64,000 nt of DNA, from positions 1 to 64,000 of the forward strand of contig NZ_JAFKID010000008.1 in assembly GCF_017306545.1 (NCBI RefSeq), in the 5' to 3' direction. The position numbers and the translations under genes are program-made. The notes under the pieces are model-generated. The model saw only the letters and a list, made by a program, of their open reading frames with translations, did no database searches and was not told the origin of the DNA. Shown here in pieces: positions 14,263-63,169 of this stretch. Origin of the DNA: Mesorhizobium sp. (lineage in GTDB: Bacteria > Pseudomonadota > Alphaproteobacteria > Rhizobiales > Rhizobiaceae). The stretch's first letter is position 1. Every line of letters begins with the position of its first letter.

Positions 14263-14630
14263 AATAGCGGTTCCGTCTTTCTCGGTGGGAGGGGTTACGC
14301 CTACTTTTGCGACCGGACGAGTGTGGAAGCGGCCAAAATCGGCCATTTGCGCCATCAAACGCGGCAATTCACGAAATTTTTTTGCCGCAACATTCCTGTT
14401 GCCCGGCTTTTTGCTGAAAGAACAAAGTCGTCGCCGCTTCGCCGGTCCTTGGAATGATCGTCTAGGATCGGCTTTGTAGCAATTTTATCGCATTAGTTAG
14501 CAATATCATTCATTTGTCAGCCTCCCTTTTCACGCTGCAAACGTGCCTTGTCGGCACCCTGAAACGCCCTTTTTTCGCTTTCGGAACAGGCGCTGAACAG
14601 CTTGCAAACGAGACATTGGAAGTCGCCGCC

Positions 14631-16469
14631 ATGACCGCTTTGGAGTTTCCGGGACCTGGCCTGAACGCCGATCAATGGAACCAGGTCGGCGCACTTGCAA
14701 CCTCGTTGCGGCCCGGCCAGGCGCTGTGGCTGAGCGGCTACTTCGCCGGCATCGACCATGCGGCGCGCGGCTTCGGCGACGATGCCTTGCCCCTGTTGCG
14801 GGATGGCGGCGCCAAGGCGGTTGCCGCGCCCGCTGCGGTTGCCACGCGCACGCTGACCATCCTCTACGGTTCCGAGACGGGCAACAGTGCCGCGTTGGCG
14901 AAGGCGCTCGCTGCTGCCGCCCGCGCCAAGGGCATCGAGCCGACCGTCGCCGACATGGCCGACTACAAGCCGCGCCGGCTGAAGGAGGAGCAGGACCTGC
15001 TGATCCTCGCCTCCACGCATGGCGAGGGCGAGCCGCCGCGCTCGGCCGCCGGCTTCTTCGAGTTCGTCGAGGGCCGCAAGGCGCCGCGGCTGGAGGGCGT
15101 GCGCTATTCCGTGCTGGCGCTGGGCGATTCCACCTACGAGTTCTACTGCGGCGCCGGCAGGCGGCTGGACGAACGGCTGGCGGAACTCGGTGCGACCCGC
15201 ATCCGCGCGCGTCTCGATTGCGACGTTGACTACGACGAGCCGTCCGCCGGCTGGATCGCGGCCGTCGCCGACGATCTCGCGCCGGCCAAGGCGAGCGCCG
15301 TGCCGGCCACGGTTGTTGCCCTGCGATCTTCGACCGCCGCCGTCGCGTCCGTCTTCGACAAGCGCAATCCGTTCGTCGCGACGGTGACGGAGAACCTTCT
15401 GCTCACCGGTCGCGGGTCGAGCAAGGAGACGCGCCACGTCGAACTGTCGCTCGGCGGCTCGGGCCTGTCCTTCGAGCCGGGCGACGCGCTGGGCATCGTG
15501 CCGCGCAACGATCCCGCCCTGGTGGAATCCCTGATCGGCGCGCTCGGCCTCGACGCGGCTGCCACCGTCGCGGTCAAGGACCGTTCGCTGCCGCTCGGCG
15601 AGGCGCTCGGCGGCACGTTCGAGATCACCGCCGCGACGCCGCGCTTCCTCGACCAGTGGGCCGAACTCTCCGGCGCCGGCGAGCTTCAGGCGCTGCGCGG
15701 CGAGGGCGCCGCCGAGGCGCGCCGGGCCTTTCTCGACGGCAATCACGTCATCGACATCGTCAAGCGCTTCCCGGTGCCGGGCATTGACGCCGCAAGCTTC
15801 ACCGCCGGCCTCAGGCCATTGCAGCCGCGCCTCTATTCCATCGCTTCCAGCCAGAGTCTCGCGCCGGACGAAGTGCACCTGACGGTCAGCACCGTGCGCT
15901 ACGATCTCAACGGCATGGCGCGCAGCGGCGTCGCCTCGGGCCATCTCGCCGATCGTTGCGACCTCGACGCCGAATTGCCGATTTACGTGCAGGCAAACCC
16001 GCATTTCCGCCTGCCGGGCGACGACGTGCCGATCATCATGGTCGGCGCCGGCACCGGCGTCGCGCCCTACCGCGCCTTCCTGCAGGAGCGCGAGGTGCGC
16101 GGCGCGGCAGGCAAATCCTGGCTGTTCTTCGGCGAGCGCAACTTTGACAGCGATTTTCTCTACCAGACCGAATGGCAGGGCTTCCTCAAGGACGAGGTGC
16201 TGTCGCGCATGAACGTCGCCTTCTCGCGCGACGGCGCGGAAAAGGTCTATGTCCAGCACCGCATCGCCGCCGAGGCGCGCGAGGTCTATGCCTGGCTGGA
16301 AGAAGGCGCGCACGTCTATGTCTGCGGCGACGGCGCCAGGCTGGCGCCGGACGTGCACAAGGCGCTGGTCGCCGTCGTGCAGGAGCAGGGCGCCAGGAGC
16401 CGGGAAGCGGCCGAGGACTATATCGCCGGGCTGCAAGCCGCCCATCGCTACCAGATCGACGTTTATTGA
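14631..16469 (+). CDS. cysJ: sulfite reductase (NADPH) flavoprotein alpha subunit
   Basis: The 612-residue diflavin reductase passes electrons from NADPH through FAD and FMN to the sulfite reductase haemoprotein. A flavodoxin domain begins with ILYGSETGNSAAL near residue 79. The FAD contact RLYSIASS lies near residue 401 and the NADPH-binding motif MVGAGTGVAPYR near 467. The C-terminus ends QIDVY, as in CysJ. The ATG at 14631 follows TTGGAAG by 8 bases; a longer frame from 14514 lacks support. It is followed 9 bases later by cysI, forming an enterobacterial-type cysJI pair, unlike the cysG-cysI-cysH block at 57-60 kb. Confidence 0.9.
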   Translation: MTALEFPGPGLNADQWNQVGALATSLRPGQALWLSGYFAGIDHAARGFGDDALPLLRDGGAKAVAAPAAVATRTLTILYGSETGNSAALAKALAAAARAKGIEPTVADMADYKPRRLKEEQDLLILASTHGEGEPPRSAAGFFEFVEGRKAPRLEGVRYSVLALGDSTYEFYCGAGRRLDERLAELGATRIRARLDCDVDYDEPSAGWIAAVADDLAPAKASAVPATVVALRSSTAAVASVFDKRNPFVATVTENLLLTGRGSSKETRHVELSLGGSGLSFEPGDALGIVPRNDPALVESLIGALGLDAAATVAVKDRSLPLGEALGGTFEITAATPRFLDQWAELSGAGELQALRGEGAAEARRAFLDGNHVIDIVKRFPVPGIDAASFTAGLRPLQPRLYSIASSQSLAPDEVHLTVSTVRYDLNGMARSGVASGHLADRCDLDAELPIYVQANPHFRLPGDDVPIIMVGAGTGVAPYRAFLQEREVRGAAGKSWLFFGERNFDSDFLYQTEWQGFLKDEVLSRMNVAFSRDGAEKVYVQHRIAAEAREVYAWLEEGAHVYVCGDGARLAPDVHKALVAVVQEQGARSREAAEDYIAGLQAAHRYQIDVY

Positions 16470-16478
16470 GACAAAGCC

Positions 16479-18209
16479 GTGACCACGATTGAAGTCGACC
16501 GCAGCCGCGACCTCTCGCAGCCGTTGGAGAAGCTCGGCCCCGACGAGACGATGAAGGCCAACAGCGACCAGCTGCGCGGCACCATCGCCGCCGGGCTGGA
16601 GGTGGAACTGACGGCGGCGGTGCCGGGCGACGACATCAAGCTGATGAAGTTCCACGGCGTCTACCAGCAGGACGACCGCGACATTCGCGACGAGCGGCGC
16701 CGCCAGAAGCTGGAGCCGGCCTATCGCTTCATGGCGCGGGTGCGCCTGCCGGGCGGGGTCCTGTCGTCCAGCCAGTGGCTGAAGCTCGACGCGCTCGGCC
16801 GCGCCTATGCCAACAACACGCTCAGGCTCACCACCCGCCAGACCTTCCAGTTCCACTACGTGCACAAAAAGAACCTGCGCGCCTTGATGCAGGGGCTGCA
16901 CGACGTGTTGCTCGACACCAAGGCGGCCTGCGGCGACGACGCGCGCGGCGTCATGGCCTCGATCAACCCGCAGCTTTCCGCGCTTCACGCGGAGGTCTAC
17001 GCGCTGGCCAAGCAGGCGAGCGACCACGCCATCCCTAAGACCGGGGCCTATCGCGAGATCTGGTACGGCGAGGAGCGTGCGGCGCCGACGAGCGAGCCGG
17101 AAGAGCCGCTCTACGGCAAGACCTACATGCCGCGGAAATTCAAGATCGGCTTCGTCATTCCGCCGATCAACGACATCGACGTCTATGCGCAGGATCTCGG
17201 CTTCATCGCCGTCACCGAAGGCAAGGAACTGAAAGGCTTCAACGTCGCCATCGGCGGCGGCATGGGCCGCACGGACAACGCGCCGAAGACCTATCCCAGG
17301 CTCGCCAGCGTCATCGGCTACATTGCGAAGGACAAGGTCATCGAGACCTGCGATGCCGTGATGACCGTGCAGCGCGACTACGGCGACCGCGTCGAGCGCA
17401 GCCGCGCCCGCTTCAAATACACGGTCGACGACAAGGGCCTCGACTTCATCAAGAGCGAGATCGAATCCCGGCTCGGCTTCGCATTGGAGCCGGCGAAACC
17501 CTACAATTTCACCTCCAACGGCGACGCCATCGGCTGGCAGCGCGGTGAGGACGGGCGCGAGCATTTCACGCTGTTCATCCAGAACGGCCGCGTCAGCAAT
17601 TTTCCTGATCTCGCGCTGTTCGACGGCTTGAGGGCAATCGCCCAGGTGCACAAGGGCATGTTCCGCGTCACGCCGAACCAGAACCTCATCATCGCCGATA
17701 TCGAACCTGCCGACCGGCCGGCGATCGAGGCGCTGCTGAAGCAGTACAAGCTCGACACGCTGAACAAGGCCAGCGGGCTTCGCCTCAATTCCATGGCTTG
17801 CGTGGCGTTTCCGACCTGCGGGCTGGCCATGGCCGAGAGCGAGCGCTACCTGCCCTCGCTGGTCGGAAAGATCGATGAAATCCTGGCCGAGCATGGCCTT
17901 TCCGAAGAGCCTATCACCATCCGCATGACCGGCTGCCCGAACGGCTGCGCCCGGCCCTATATCGCCGAGATCGCGCTGACGGGGCGGGCGCCGGGCAAGT
18001 ACAACCTCTATCTCGGCGGCGGCTTCCACGGCCAGCGCCTGAACAAGATGGTGCTGGAGAACGTCGCCGAGCCGGCGATCCTCGATCATCTCGGCAAGGT
18101 CATCGGCGATTTCGCGCACAACCGGGAGCCGGGCGAACGCTTCGGCGACTTCGCCATCCGCGCCGGCCATGTGGCGGAAGTGAAGGAAGGCCGGTTCTTC
18201 AACGATTGA
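16479..18209 (+). CDS. cysI: sulfite reductase haemoprotein beta subunit
   Basis: The 576-residue haemoprotein reduces sulfite to sulfide with siroheme and a 4Fe-4S cluster. The four cluster cysteines are intact in CVAFPTCGLAMAESER (about residue 440) and MTGCPNGCARPY (about 484). The siroheme arginine segment TLRLTTRQTFQFH is present near residue 111. It starts at GTG 16479, 9 bases after cysJ. The length and order match NADPH-dependent CysI. A second cysI-like gene at 57595-58941 has lost these cysteines, so this copy is probably the working assimilatory enzyme. Confidence 0.93.
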   Translation: MTTIEVDRSRDLSQPLEKLGPDETMKANSDQLRGTIAAGLEVELTAAVPGDDIKLMKFHGVYQQDDRDIRDERRRQKLEPAYRFMARVRLPGGVLSSSQWLKLDALGRAYANNTLRLTTRQTFQFHYVHKKNLRALMQGLHDVLLDTKAACGDDARGVMASINPQLSALHAEVYALAKQASDHAIPKTGAYREIWYGEERAAPTSEPEEPLYGKTYMPRKFKIGFVIPPINDIDVYAQDLGFIAVTEGKELKGFNVAIGGGMGRTDNAPKTYPRLASVIGYIAKDKVIETCDAVMTVQRDYGDRVERSRARFKYTVDDKGLDFIKSEIESRLGFALEPAKPYNFTSNGDAIGWQRGEDGREHFTLFIQNGRVSNFPDLALFDGLRAIAQVHKGMFRVTPNQNLIIADIEPADRPAIEALLKQYKLDTLNKASGLRLNSMACVAFPTCGLAMAESERYLPSLVGKIDEILAEHGLSEEPITIRMTGCPNGCARPYIAEIALTGRAPGKYNLYLGGGFHGQRLNKMVLENVAEPAILDHLGKVIGDFAHNREPGERFGDFAIRAGHVAEVKEGRFFND

Positions 18210-56855: not shown

Positions 56856-57620
56856 TTACAGCGAGGCGTCGGTCAGCGACTTTTCCAACCCGGACAGGTG
56901 AATGCCGCATTCGGTCTTGGCCTGTCCGGCCCAGCGGCCGGAGCGGGCATCCTCGCCCGGCTGCACCGGCTGCGTGCAGGGAAAGCAGCCGATCGACAGG
57001 TAGCCGTAGGCGACGAGCGGGTTTTCCCGGAGCGCGTGGGCGCGCATGTAGTCGGCCTGGTCGGCGGTGGTCCAGTGCGCCAGCGGGTTGATGCGGATGC
57101 GGTGTCCCACCGCCTCGAAGACCGGCAAGGCGGTCCGCGTCGAGGCCTGAAAACGCTTGCGGCCGGTGAACCAGGCCTCGAACGGCTCGACGCCGCGCGC
57201 CATCGGCTCGACCTTGCGGATCGCGCAGCAGGCGTCGGTGTCGGTTTCATGCAGCCTGCCCGTCGGATCGAGGCGGGCGAGCGCGGCCTCCTGCGGGGCG
57301 ACGACGCGCACGTCGGTCAGTCCGAAGTCGGCCACCAGTGCGTCACGGTAGCTCAGCGTTTCCTCGAAATGCTTGCCCGTGTCGAGGAAGACGATCGGCA
57401 GATGCCGATCGATCCCGGCGATCATGTGGAGCAGTACCGCCGAGTCGGCGCCGAACGACGAGACCGCCGCGACGGCGCCCGCAAACAGGTCGGCCGCGGC
57501 GCGCTCGATGATCGCTTGCGGCGCCAGATGGCCGTACAGCGCATCGAGCCCGGCGGCATGGGCCGTGCTTTCCGCGGCGGCGGTGGTTACGGCGTCAAGC
57601 GGCCCGGATTTCGCGAGCAT
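56856..57620 (-). CDS. cysH: adenylyl-sulfate (APS) reductase, CysH family
   Basis: The 254-residue protein reduces activated sulfate to sulfite. The nucleotide-binding loop reads SSFGADSAVLLHMIAG near residue 55. The paired cysteines CCAIRK near residue 131 and the CFPC motif near residue 218 are the 4Fe-4S ligands that mark APS rather than PAPS reductases. The catalytic cysteine is in ECGIHLSG near the end. The start ATG 57620 overlaps the degraded cysI by 26 bases, so the two are translationally linked. Confidence 0.92.
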   Translation of the reverse strand: MLAKSGPLDAVTTAAAESTAHAAGLDALYGHLAPQAIIERAAADLFAGAVAAVSSFGADSAVLLHMIAGIDRHLPIVFLDTGKHFEETLSYRDALVADFGLTDVRVVAPQEAALARLDPTGRLHETDTDACCAIRKVEPMARGVEPFEAWFTGRKRFQASTRTALPVFEAVGHRIRINPLAHWTTADQADYMRAHALRENPLVAYGYLSIGCFPCTQPVQPGEDARSGRWAGQAKTECGIHLSGLEKSLTDASL

Positions 57621-58941
57621 GAAGCGTCTCCTCGATGGGCTGCGGGCCGGCGTGGCGGCGGCTGTCGGTGATGTGGTTCCCGCGATCCTGCCGGGCGGCG
57701 GCCAGGCCGACCGCCGTCAACGTTTCGTACACCGCCTTGAGATCAGCGCGCGCCACGTGCGGCAGGACCAGGCTTTGCTCGGGGCTGATGCGCAACGCGT
57801 CGAAACCGTAGCGCGCGGCAAGGCCGGCCACAGTCTCCATCTGCTCGGCCGAGATGTCGCCGGATGCTTCGCTCGCGCCGCCGAGCGGCACCACGACCAC
57901 CGCGTAATCGGGATTGTGATGGGCAAGCGTGTCGCGGGCGAGCCATTCGCCGAAGAAACGTGAATCGAGCCGGGCGAGTTTAACCGCTTCATTGCTTTCC
58001 GGGCGGGCCCGCAGGTCCGGCGGCGCGAAGCGCGCGTTGATCGTCTCGACCGTGGCTTCGGGCAGCGCCGGCTCGGTTCTTTTCAGGTCGGCCCATTCGG
58101 CTTCGACCTCATGGGCGAAGGCCTCCGCGCCGGCTTCGTGCACGAGCGTGGCGAGGCGCGCCCGGTGTTTGCCCGGACGCTGCCTGTGGCGGTCGTAGAC
58201 GCGCAGGAGCGCCGTGCAGTAGGAGGCGAGGTGGTCGGCCGGCAGGAAGCCGCGCAGCGTCGCCGACGCTCCCGGCACGCCGCCGACATGGACGGCAAAG
58301 CCCAGTTGCCTGCGGTCGTTCCGGTCTAGCCGCAGGCCGATATCGTATGCGCTGGCGGTGCCGTGATCGCGCTCCGAGCCGGTGACGGCGATCCTGACCT
58401 GGCGCGGCCGGCCGGAAAGTTCCGGATGCCGCGCCGACCACCGACGCAGGATTTCGGTGAAGGGGCGCGGGTCGGCGATCTCGTCGGCCGCCGCGCCGGC
58501 GAGATGATCGGCCGCGACGATGCGGATGCCGCCGGGCGACGCCTGGGCCGGTTGCAGTTCGACGGCGGCGAGGCCGGTGAGGATCGCCGGCACGTCGGCC
58601 AGCGCCGGCCAGTCGAACCGGATCTCCCGCCGTGCGGTGAAGTGGGCGTAACCCTTGTCGTATCGGCGCGCGACATGGGCAAGCGCGCGAAGCTTTCGCG
58701 GCGTCAGCATGCCGTAGGGCAGGGGAATGCGCAGCATGTAGGAATGAGGTTGCAGGTAGACGCCGTTCATCAGTCTGAGCGGGCGGAACTGGTCTTCGGT
58801 GATTTCCCCGGCCAGCCGGCGCTCGACCTGATCGGCGAATGCGGCGATGCGGGCCTTTACGACTTCTCCGTCGAACCCGTCGCAGGCGCCTACCAGATCC
58901 TGTCCCGGCGTCCGTATCCGTTCGGCGGCGAGCATCGTCAT
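57595..58941 (-). pseudogene. degraded sulfite reductase haemoprotein (cysI-like) with internal deletion
   Basis: The 448-codon open frame matches rhizobial-type CysI up to LPHVARADLKAVYETLTAVG and NHITD, where normal proteins continue into IIACPGLDYC. It then jumps to SRRHAGPQPIEETLHA, which looks like the extreme C-terminus of the family. About 110-130 residues with all four siroheme/4Fe-4S cysteines are missing, with no frameshift. Siroheme-contact segments also diverge: FTARREIRF replaces the FTTRQNIQF pattern. The gene overlaps cysG and cysH, so it is still translated or simply retained for coupling. It cannot be an active sulfite reductase; a pseudoenzyme role is open. Confidence 0.8.
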
Positions 58942-60386
58942 GCGCCGGCCCTTTCCGTAGTGGGTGCGGTCCTGTCCGCCCGCCGCGCGGCAAGCGGCTC
59001 GGAACGGTCGAAGCGGGCGCCGGCGACGGCATCGCCGATGACGGTCATGACCGGGCCTGTGAGATCGGTGCGCGCCTCGAGCGACGGCAGGTCGGAAAGA
59101 ATGCCGTGGAAGCGGCGGCAGGTCGGCAGGCTGGCGTTTTCGGCGACGGCGACGGCGGTGTCCGGCGAAAGTCCCGCCTCGATCAACCGGCCGGCGACCT
59201 CGGCAGCGACGCTGCGGCCCATATAGACGGCAACGGTCGCCCCGGAGACGGCGAGTTTTGCCCAGTCCGGCAGCGTGCCGCCCTTGAGGTCGTGGCCGGT
59301 GGTGAAGACCATCGAAGAGGTGACGCCGCGCAAGGTCAGCGGCAGTTCGAAGTCGGCTGCGGCGGCGAAGGCGGCGGTGACGCCGGGCACGACTTCGTAG
59401 GCGATGCCGGCCTCGCGCAGCGCCGCCATTTCCTCGCCGGCACGGCCGAACACCAGCGGATCGCCGCTTTTCAGCCGCACGACGCGCTTGCCCTCGCGGC
59501 CGAGCGCCACCAACAGGGCGTTGATCTCCTCCTGGGTTTTGGAATGGCAGCCCTTGCGCTTGCCAACCGGCAGCCGCTCGGCATCGCGGCGTCCCATGGC
59601 GACGACCGCCTCCGGCACAAGCGCGTCGTAAAGGATCGCGTCTGCTTCCATCAGCAGGCGCTGCGCCCGCAAGGTCAGGAGGTCTTCGGCGCCTGGTCCG
59701 GCGCCGACCAGCGCGACATGCCCTGTCGCCGGCGCATCGGCGCGCAGCAGGTCGGCCGCGGCACGGCGGGCGGCGGCGATGTCGCCGTCCGCGAGGGCTT
59801 GCGCCGGCGCGCCGCGGAAGAAGCCGGCCCAGAAGCGGCGCCGGCGGTTGCCTTTCGGCAGCAGCCGTTCGGCCGTGTCGCGGAAGGAGGCGGCGAGGGC
59901 GGCCAGCGGTCCGAGATGCGGCGGCAGCATCTGGTCGATCCGGACGCGGATCATTTGCGCCAGCACCGGGCCGGCGCCCTCCGTGCCGATGGCGACGGCG
60001 ACCGGCGCCCGGTTGACCAAAGCAGGGGTAAAGAAATCGCACAGGGCCGGCCGGTCCACCGCGTTGACGGCGATGCCCAGGCAGCGTGCGTCGGCGGCGA
60101 CGCGCGTGTCCAGCGTTCCGTCGCCACTGGCGGCGAAGACCATCACGGCGCCTTCCAGGTGGCGCGCGGCGTAAGGTGCTGCGACGTGCTCCAGCCTGTG
60201 GCCGGCCATGAAGGCGGCGAGCGCCGGCTCAACCGTTTCCGCGACGACGCGCAGCCTTGCACTCGACTGCGCAAGAAGCCGCGCCTTGGCCAACGCCTCC
60301 TCGCCGCCGCCGACGATGGCGACGACGCGATCTTCCACCCGCATGAAAACGGGGAAGGCATTCAGTCTGTCGGCGTGGTTGGTCAT
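58938..60386 (-). CDS. cysG: siroheme synthase
   Basis: The 482-residue trifunctional enzyme makes siroheme from uroporphyrinogen III. The N-terminal precorrin-2 dehydrogenase/ferrochelatase part has VVAIVGGGEEALAKARLL near residue 18. The C-terminal methyltransferase has VALVGAGPGAEDLLTLRA near 222, RLKSGDPLVFGRAGEEM near 302, and VVPGVTAAFAAAA near 330. It heads the cysG-cysI'-cysH block with a 4-base overlap to the next gene. The DUF2849 gene often found between cysG and cysI in rhizobia is absent. Two inverted repeats lie in its promoter region. Confidence 0.92.
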   Translation of the reverse strand: MTNHADRLNAFPVFMRVEDRVVAIVGGGEEALAKARLLAQSSARLRVVAETVEPALAAFMAGHRLEHVAAPYAARHLEGAVMVFAASGDGTLDTRVAADARCLGIAVNAVDRPALCDFFTPALVNRAPVAVAIGTEGAGPVLAQMIRVRIDQMLPPHLGPLAALAASFRDTAERLLPKGNRRRRFWAGFFRGAPAQALADGDIAAARRAAADLLRADAPATGHVALVGAGPGAEDLLTLRAQRLLMEADAILYDALVPEAVVAMGRRDAERLPVGKRKGCHSKTQEEINALLVALGREGKRVVRLKSGDPLVFGRAGEEMAALREAGIAYEVVPGVTAAFAAAADFELPLTLRGVTSSMVFTTGHDLKGGTLPDWAKLAVSGATVAVYMGRSVAAEVAGRLIEAGLSPDTAVAVAENASLPTCRRFHGILSDLPSLEARTDLTGPVMTVIGDAVAGARFDRSEPLAARRADRTAPTTERAGA

Positions 60387-62286: not shown

Positions 62287-62304
62287 ACGGAAATGGTGGA
62301 GTAG

Positions 62305-62352
62305 GGCAATAAGGCAATAAGGCAATAAGGCAATAAGGCAATAAGGCAATAA
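62305..62352. repeat. octanucleotide array A, six copies
   Basis: GGCAATAA is repeated six times without interruption, starting 18 bases after the grpE stop. It lies outside any supported gene. Confidence 0.95.
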
Positions 62353-62426
62353 GGGGTGCCGCTCGGGCGCTGCCGCCTTCGAGGTTGAGGCAGCCGCTTG
62401 ACGAATCCGGCCGGGGGCCGCAGTTT

Positions 62427-62522
62427 CTACTGCCCTACTGCCCTACTGCCCTACTGCCCTACTGCCCTACTGCCCTACTGCCCTACTGCCCTACTGCCCT
62501 ACTGCCCTACTGCCCTACTGCC
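62427..62522. repeat. octanucleotide array B, twelve copies
   Basis: CTACTGCC is repeated twelve times without interruption. Its reverse complement, GGCAGTAG, differs from the unit of array A at two positions, so the arrays are inverted relatives. The array ends 14 bases before the TRIC start codon. Confidence 0.95.
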
Positions 62523-62536
62523 GTGGTCGACGTCCG

Positions 62537-63169
62537 ATGACCCTCGTCACCCTTCTCGACTACGCAGGCGTGGCCGTTTTCGCGGCGACCGGAGCGTTGG
62601 CCGCCTCCCGCAAGCAACTCGACATCATCGGCTTCCTGTTCCTTGCCGCTGCCACCGGCATCGGCGGCGGCACCTTGCGCGACCTCATCCTCGGCGTGCC
62701 GGTGTTCTGGGTCGCCAACCGGGCCTACGTGCTGATCTGCGCGGCGATGGCGGTGGTGGTGTTCTTCGGCGCCCACCGGGTCGAATCCCGCTACAGGCTG
62801 CTTCTGTGGCTGGATGCCATCGGCATCGCGGCCTTTTCGGTGATGGGCGCGGCCAAGGGCTTGGCCGTCACCGACTCGGCCACCATCGCGATCGTCATGG
62901 GCGTGCTGACGGCCACCTTCGGCGGCGTGCTGCGTGACCTTCTGGCCGGCGAGCCGTCGGTGCTTCTGCGGCCGGAGATCTACGTCACGGCCGCGCTCGC
63001 GGGCTCGGCCCTCTATACGCTGGGCGCCGTCGTCGGACTGGCGGCGCCGGCCGCCGCGCTGGCCGGTTTCGCCGCGGCCTTCCTGGTGCGCGGCGGCGCG
63101 CTTCGCTTCGGCTGGTCTTTCCCGGCCTACAGGAGCCGGCCGGGCCGGCGGCCGGAAGACATTCCGTAA
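62537..63169 (+). CDS. TRIC-family (UPF0126) cation channel
   Basis: The 210-residue membrane protein has seven predicted helices with the internal repeat of the bacterial TRIC family: TGIGGGTLRDLILG near residue 37 and TATFGGVLRDLLAGEPSVLL near residue 122. Family members form trimeric cation (potassium) channels. The start ATG 62537 follows array B by 14 bases, and no clear Shine-Dalgarno is seen, so changes in the array could affect its translation or transcription. Confidence 0.9.
   Translation: MTLVTLLDYAGVAVFAATGALAASRKQLDIIGFLFLAAATGIGGGTLRDLILGVPVFWVANRAYVLICAAMAVVVFFGAHRVESRYRLLLWLDAIGIAAFSVMGAAKGLAVTDSATIAIVMGVLTATFGGVLRDLLAGEPSVLLRPEIYVTAALAGSALYTLGAVVGLAAPAAALAGFAAAFLVRGGALRFGWSFPAYRSRPGRRPEDIP

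Follow-up and report, generated by a model that had tools for sequence, protein, structure and literature searches.

An eroded sulfite reductase gene between cysG and cysH in Mesorhizobium sp.

The cysG-cysH locus and its shortened CysI frame

The window analyzed here is the whole 64,000-nucleotide stretch of Mesorhizobium sp. DNA; it lies in contig C57 of a 4.8-Mb draft genome (G000; 66 contigs, completeness 99.99%). It carries an open reading frame (ORF) related to the sulfite reductase CysI between cysG and cysH, as well as genes for an NADPH-type sulfite reductase:

14514..16469, plus strand: cysJ, NADPH sulfite reductase flavoprotein, probable displacing enzyme (TIGR01931, 706.8 bits, cut-off 668.15)
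16479..18209, plus strand: cysI of the NADPH type (cysI2), complete, probable displacing enzyme (TIGR02041, 771.7 bits, cut-off 756.55)
56856..57620, minus strand: cysH (phosphoadenylyl-sulfate reductase), starting inside the CysI tail, 26-nt overlap
57595..58941, minus strand: eroded CysI ORF of 448 codons, without the second NIR_SIR (siroheme/4Fe-4S) domain (frame, Pfam, alignment)
57595..57678, minus strand: kept C-terminal CysI tail, where cysH has its start codon and, by eye, a Shine-Dalgarno-like sequence
57678..57700, minus strand: approximate junction of the 120-codon in-frame deletion (intact CysI about 414-533; alignment, exact edge not fixed)
57712..57882, minus strand: second NIR_SIR_ferr half-domain, kept (Pfam)
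58090..58527, minus strand: first NIR_SIR domain, kept; 4 residues missing, PRQVR in place of PRKFK (Pfam, alignment)
58564..58749, minus strand: first NIR_SIR_ferr half-domain, kept (Pfam)
58891..58941, minus strand: first 17 codons, possibly the start of a DUF2849 gene fused in frame to cysI
58938..60386, minus strand: cysG (siroheme synthase), its stop overlapping the relic start by 4 nt (ATGA)

The initial annotation had described an open CysI frame of 448 codons overlapping both neighbours, and this is what we found: no stop occurs between 57595 and 58941, and the overlaps amount to 4 nt with cysG and 26 nt with cysH. About 110-130 residues, including the four cluster cysteines, had been said to be missing. 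Alignment with intact CysI revealed gaps at residues 206-209 (4 residues) and 414-533 (120 residues), whose number and edges on the C-terminal side varied with the gap penalty, and neither the second siroheme/4Fe-4S domain nor any of the four cluster cysteines was present. Since the end of the ORF (GPQPIEETLHAREIRAA) aligns with the C-terminus of CysI (GPAPFKEALYGAEARAA), the deletion is internal. The proposed jump from NHITD to SRRHAGPQP was right about the deletion but not about the place of the junction: NHITD aligns with RFLD of ...RFLDVYRRVGPAP... in intact CysI and thus probably belongs to the C-terminal side, which would put the junction a few residues upstream of NHITD. The siroheme-contact motifs are altered as described, PRKFK reading PRQVR and TTRQNIQ reading TARREIR; we take PRKFK and TTRQ..Q to be active-site motifs, with the role they have in E. 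coli sulfite reductase (SiR).

On this alignment, we conclude that the window ORF derives from an alphaproteobacterial CysI that has lost 120 codons in frame; the parent enzyme was presumably of the ferredoxin-dependent type, judging by family resemblance. Alphaproteobacterial CysI (NIR_SIR; 556 aa in the sequences read from the genus) is homologous to the retained part, occupies the same place between cysG and cysH and also has two NIR_SIR_ferr stretches. Unlike it, the window ORF has no cluster cysteines, no second NIR_SIR domain (Pfam finds NIR_SIR_ferr twice and NIR_SIR once, compared with two of each in the intact CysI of G006), neither motif in its unaltered form, and no DUF2849 or DUF934 neighbour. 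It passes the Pfam cut-offs, so domain-based annotation could wrongly predict a working nitrite or sulfite reductase. The structure model of the ORF had a mean pLDDT of 73 and a pTM of 0.74, with pLDDT below 50 at residues 1-23, 63-67, 130-137, 355-361 and 416-448. Its best PDB match was tobacco nitrite reductase (3b0g; TMq 0.55, rmsd 9.0), and among solved structures the sequence relatives of CysI are nitrite reductases (3vlx, 3b0g, 2akj and 1zj8, for example). The model suggests a NiR/SiR fold but is not decisive.

About 40 kb from the window ORF, cysJ and cysI2 (14514-18209, plus strand) both score above their NCBIfam cut-offs; cysI2 also matched NF010029 (785.8 bits, cut-off 457), and its cysteines are visible in the translation. 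This E. coli-type CysJI, complete in the window, catalyzes the reaction that the relic would have lost. Its CysI belongs to another subfamily than the old CysI and has its own flavoprotein; the two are 28-32% identical over the matched part, among the matches listed. The missing cysteines, the altered motifs and the complete CysJI all agree with the earlier proposal that the product is a pseudoenzyme. A further NIR_SIR/NIR_SIR_ferr site elsewhere in the genome (G000:C52:34666-35220) has a 276-aa open frame and is perhaps CobG.

The locus in related genomes

A scan of 146 genomes of the genus gave a match to the old cysI in 144, at 1e-149 or better in 139; no match was found in G079 or in the 79%-complete G132. 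Matches in G024, G043 and G119 were weaker, being truncated or spread over contigs or frames; in the last (G119:C51:10803-12451), the old cysI occupies two overlapping frames (1-290 and 288-556), apparently because of a frameshift. The intact CysI sequences read from the genus (37 rows from 35 distinct genomes) all had 556 aa. The four-cysteine pattern was present in all 37 of these rows and in each of the 78 named sequences, among them one of 476 aa; two of the 80 named loci had no such frame and were left out.

The intact operon has the order cysG-DUF2849-cysI-cysH-DUF934. When DUF2849 and DUF934 were looked for genome-wide in 21 genomes as PF11011 and PF06073, PF11011 was present in 17 (absent from G000, G042, G079 and G132) and PF06073 in 18 (absent from G000, G042 and G079), so that neither family was found anywhere in G000, G042 or G079. 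Growth data implicate the DUF934 protein Psest_2088 of Pseudomonas stutzeri RCH2, whose intact gene lies beside that of the sulfite reductase beta subunit, in the activity of sulfite reductase (PMC5554334). The absence of the family here fits such a role. Open-licence PubMed Central returned no paper dealing with DUF2849 together with sulfite reductase.

The window ORF starts at position -4 relative to the cysG stop, which is the start site of DUF2849 in eight relatives. Its first nine residues resemble DUF2849 to a degree reached by 28 of 50,000 shuffles; for 11 residues the figure was 84, and over 16 residues the resemblance was weaker (1142 of 50,000). Among 1435 ATG-started peptides of the window, 2, 5 and 34, respectively, scored as high, the ORF itself counted. 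Given the start site and the nine-residue resemblance, the ORF may have arisen when the start of DUF2849 became joined to cysI in frame. In the sister genome G042, cysI keeps its native start, 13 nt downstream of the cysG stop; the loss of DUF2849 thus had a different outcome in each of the two genomes.

G042 is the sister of G000 in the rpoB tree (support 100). Its remnant, of 231 codons, has lost both NIR_SIR stretches and kept both half-domains; the gaps relative to intact CysI span residues 126-324 and 407-532, and the C-terminal one overlaps that of G000. Judged from the sequences, the two C-terminal deletions may or may not go back to one event, because their edges lie a few residues apart and shift with the alignment. 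In G079, which groups with G000 and G042 at only 75% support, cysI is lost and cysG is followed directly by cysH (G079:C10, 1758-3985); the cysH ATG lies 11 nt after the cysG stop, and an in-frame TTG overlaps that stop. The comparison of relatives suggested by the initial annotation thus gave an overlapping deletion in the sister, a missing gene in G079 and an intact gene elsewhere. The stages run from an intact gene beside CysJI (G006, G051, G101) through 448 codons (G000) and 231 codons (G042) to complete loss (G079); they represent separate lineages and not a single line of descent. As a separate observation from the ORF lists, both G000 and G042 carry an in-frame tandem repeat, PYCPTALL, between grpE and the next gene (about 62290-62540 in the window and about 2436-2850 in the G042 locus).

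The 26-nt overlap between cysI and cysH was found in G000, in G042 and in four relatives with an intact gene (G006, G051, G130 and G101); the intact G013, G055, G005 and G084, for which no cysH start was returned, are outside this count.

A full-strength match to cysI2 was obtained in 12 of the 146 genomes, among them G000, G042 and G079, where the old cysI is eroded or gone, and G132, where cysH lies at a contig end. Eight of the 12, including G006, G051 and G101, keep a full-strength match to the old cysI, so displacement does not force its loss. Since the genomes are few and related, the coincidence of cysI2 with loss of the old cysI is an association and not a test. Between G000 and G042, amino-acid identity is 90% for CysJ and 97% for its partner CysI2. 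In G066, where the old cysI match is at full strength, the NADPH-type cysI is in two pieces on two contigs (C36:25049-26152 and C29:44703-45326), one with an internal TGA and possibly from a broken copy.

The family was scanned with intact CysI (393 genomes, counted by hand, the top rows alone carrying coordinates): 367 genomes matched at 1e-216 or better, G000 and G177 were intermediate, nine were weak and 15 had no match. G177, from another genus, was the sole such case besides G000 among the matches listed. Its remnant of 227 aa consists of the two half-domains alone (gaps at 138-330, 347-350 and 414-545), lies between cysG and cysH, and overlaps cysH by 26 nt as read from the sequence; G177 also has the NADPH-type enzyme. 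The cysI of its congener G263 is intact. The G042 and G177 remnants are 48.8% identical to each other, compared with 57.8% (G042-G006) and 59.2% (G177-G263) to intact CysI. In the relic tree, G177 grouped with G263 (support 89), 11.3 log units better than a joint origin of the relics, although the AU test did not reject joint origin (p = 0.15 and 0.11). The argument is carried by the identities of the G177 cysG (84.5% with G263, 72.4% with G000, 70.8% with G042) and by the differing upstream junctions: the two-half-domain form of G177 probably arose by independent loss. All 73 records obtained in a plasmid search were below 60% identity and were set aside. A scan of 396 genomes of the order gave no further two-half-domain case among the matches listed; a 321-aa frame was seen there in G600.

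Selection on the remnant

The dN/dS calculation that had been suggested gave tip ω values of 0.15 (G000), 0.29 (G042) and 0.25 (G177) in branch models, compared with a background of 0.043-0.05, and ω = 1 was rejected on each tip (2ΔlnL 27.3, 14.4 and 16.9, respectively). These tip values mix two regimes, because the branches may partly predate the loss of function. In the pairwise comparison of G000 and G042, ω was 0.258 for the remnant, 0.052 for cysG, 0.058 for cysH and 0.022 for cysI2. On the stem before the split of these two genomes ω was 0.36-0.58; a value of 0.043 was rejected there (2ΔlnL 32.6), but ω = 1 was not (0.6). Relaxation therefore appears to have set in on the stem that the two genomes share. 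By region, ω in G000 was 0.16 for the first half-domain compared with 0.35 and 0.46, the site counts not differing significantly (p = 0.23 and 0.33); stem values by region were not used, as the first half-domain hit the search bound (7.4, dS 0.008).

We also followed the 95 half-domain sites that reach 97% conservation or more across 113 intact sequences (35 from the genus, 77 named ones of 550 aa or more, and G263). At these sites, 26 were changed in G000, 33 in G042 and 33 in G177, and 48 of the 95 were unchanged in all three. The changed sites shared by pairs numbered 18 (G000/G042, odds ratio 8.1), 21 (G000/G177, odds ratio 19.9, p = 1.6e-8) and 21 (G042/G177, odds ratio 7.3); since G000 and G042 are sisters, their overlap is not independent evidence. 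Under simulated independent evolution, the probability of the shared sites was 0.00025 for G000/G177 and 0.006-0.0075 for G042/G177. The eight identical replacements of G000 and G177 were reached in 0 of 4000 simulations, and the five of G042 and G177 had a probability of about 0.05. Changed in all three relics are T87, Q89, N90 and Q92 of TTRQNIQ as well as H375 and N378 of HEQN; the replacements T87A and N405R recur in all three and H375Y in G042 and G177.

None of the three relics contains a stop or frameshift, and their frames are open across seven aligned gaps; these were counted on protein alignments, where compensating pairs of small frameshifts would be invisible. The simulated chance of no stop in 405 codons was 0.0005-0.16 at neutral distances of 0.5-0.8, the value varying with equilibrium GC. 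GC-rich DNA contains few stops, and an open frame by itself is therefore weak evidence. A neutral pseudogene would show ω near 1 and random changes; the relics do not, and the stem branch alone fits ω = 1. We conclude that selection and site pattern are as expected of a protein without catalysis but with a fold.

Origin and maintenance of the remnant

On balance, we favour the reading that the window ORF is a catalytically dead pseudoenzyme that would retain its fold and be kept by translational coupling from cysG to cysH. CysJI probably took over sulfite reduction, relieving the old CysI of it, and the old module would then have been dismantled stepwise, with loss of DUF2849, the second NIR_SIR domain and DUF934, cysG and cysH staying in place. 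The remnant would still be translated: ribosomes leaving cysG could read through it and help to start cysH in its last codons, so that in-frame changes alone would be tolerated, with a product that is foldable and harmless. The large deletions in the relics are domain-sized and leave the frame open, and the relic frame runs into the cysH start, as a translational coupler would. The right edges of the large C-terminal gaps (532-545) spare the tail with the cysH start and the Shine-Dalgarno-like sequence, which fits a constraint from cysH. The relic start follows the cysG stop at a distance of 13 nt in G042 and 39 nt in G177, which makes upstream coupling look looser there than in G000, and the Shine-Dalgarno-like sequence that cysH itself has (by eye) means that coupling may not be needed. 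The initial annotation held that the gene might be kept only for coupling. Coupling is plausible from the overlap, the open frame and the adjacency of cysG and cysH in G079, but "only" is doubtful: purifying selection acts on what remains of the protein, and G177 spares largely the same sites. Purifying selection exceeds what a mere spacer needs, which favours a role of the protein.

Bacterial pseudoenzymes and operon pseudogenes can be kept for the sake of downstream expression. The relic resembles them in its lost catalytic residues, its kept frame and its overlap with a needed downstream gene; it differs in that domain-sized losses have, in two genera, led to the same pair of half-domains. 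No eroded CysI was apparent among the matches listed in open-licence PubMed Central, as far as titles and the opening lines of abstracts tell.

The main rival to retention by coupling, possible but less probable, is that the protein has been repurposed. The two NIR_SIR_ferr half-domains form one joint domain in SiR structures, and together they might make up a stable protein that has no cofactor and serves sulfur assimilation in a new or secondary way, for instance as a partner of CysH or CysG; we know of no partner for it. This would explain the strength of selection better. It is favoured by the arrival of two genera at the same end-form (231 aa in G042, 227 aa in G177), by the 48 unchanged sites and the recurrent T87A, N405R and H375Y, by identical replacements with G177 that simulations reached never (eight, G000) or in about 5% of cases (five, G042), and by the fall of ω from 0.36-0.58 on the stem to 0.15-0.29 on the tips. 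However, the gene can be lost, as G079 shows, and G177 is the lone further case identified among the 393 family genomes, with none among the matches listed for the 396 genomes of the order. Tentatively, one may go further and suppose that a sulfite reductase cut down to two half-domains at least twice independently is a new class of cofactor-free proteins of about 230 residues, with a role of its own beside CysG and CysH; the window ORF, with one NIR_SIR domain, would be an intermediate.

Transient neutral decay, in which a dead gene in a GC-rich genome has kept its frame by chance, appears unlikely. A stop-free frame of 405 codons had a probability of up to 0.16 in the simulations and tip ω is about 3-6 times the intact value, but ω = 1 was rejected on every tip, relaxation seems to date from the shared stem, where the intact ω did not fit, the three relics have stayed open across their gaps, and the changed conserved sites of G177 coincide with those of G000 and G042 (21 of 95 each). 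A simple pseudogene is thus disfavoured by ω and by site overlap. An assembly or sequencing artefact is hardly credible even in a draft of 66 contigs, given the overlapping deletion in the sister G042, a comparable one in G177 of another genus, the near-complete genome and the parallel absence of DUF2849 and DUF934.

The case bears on a general point: whether a protein has lost its catalytic activity and whether selection has ceased to act on it are two questions that are often taken as one. One genus displays stages of what may be the dismantling of an enzyme within its operon after another enzyme has taken over, with the shortest form seen again in a second genus. The remnant lends itself to a direct test between two possibilities: that the layout of the operon is enough to keep a dead gene in frame, or that a reductase scaffold has found another use.
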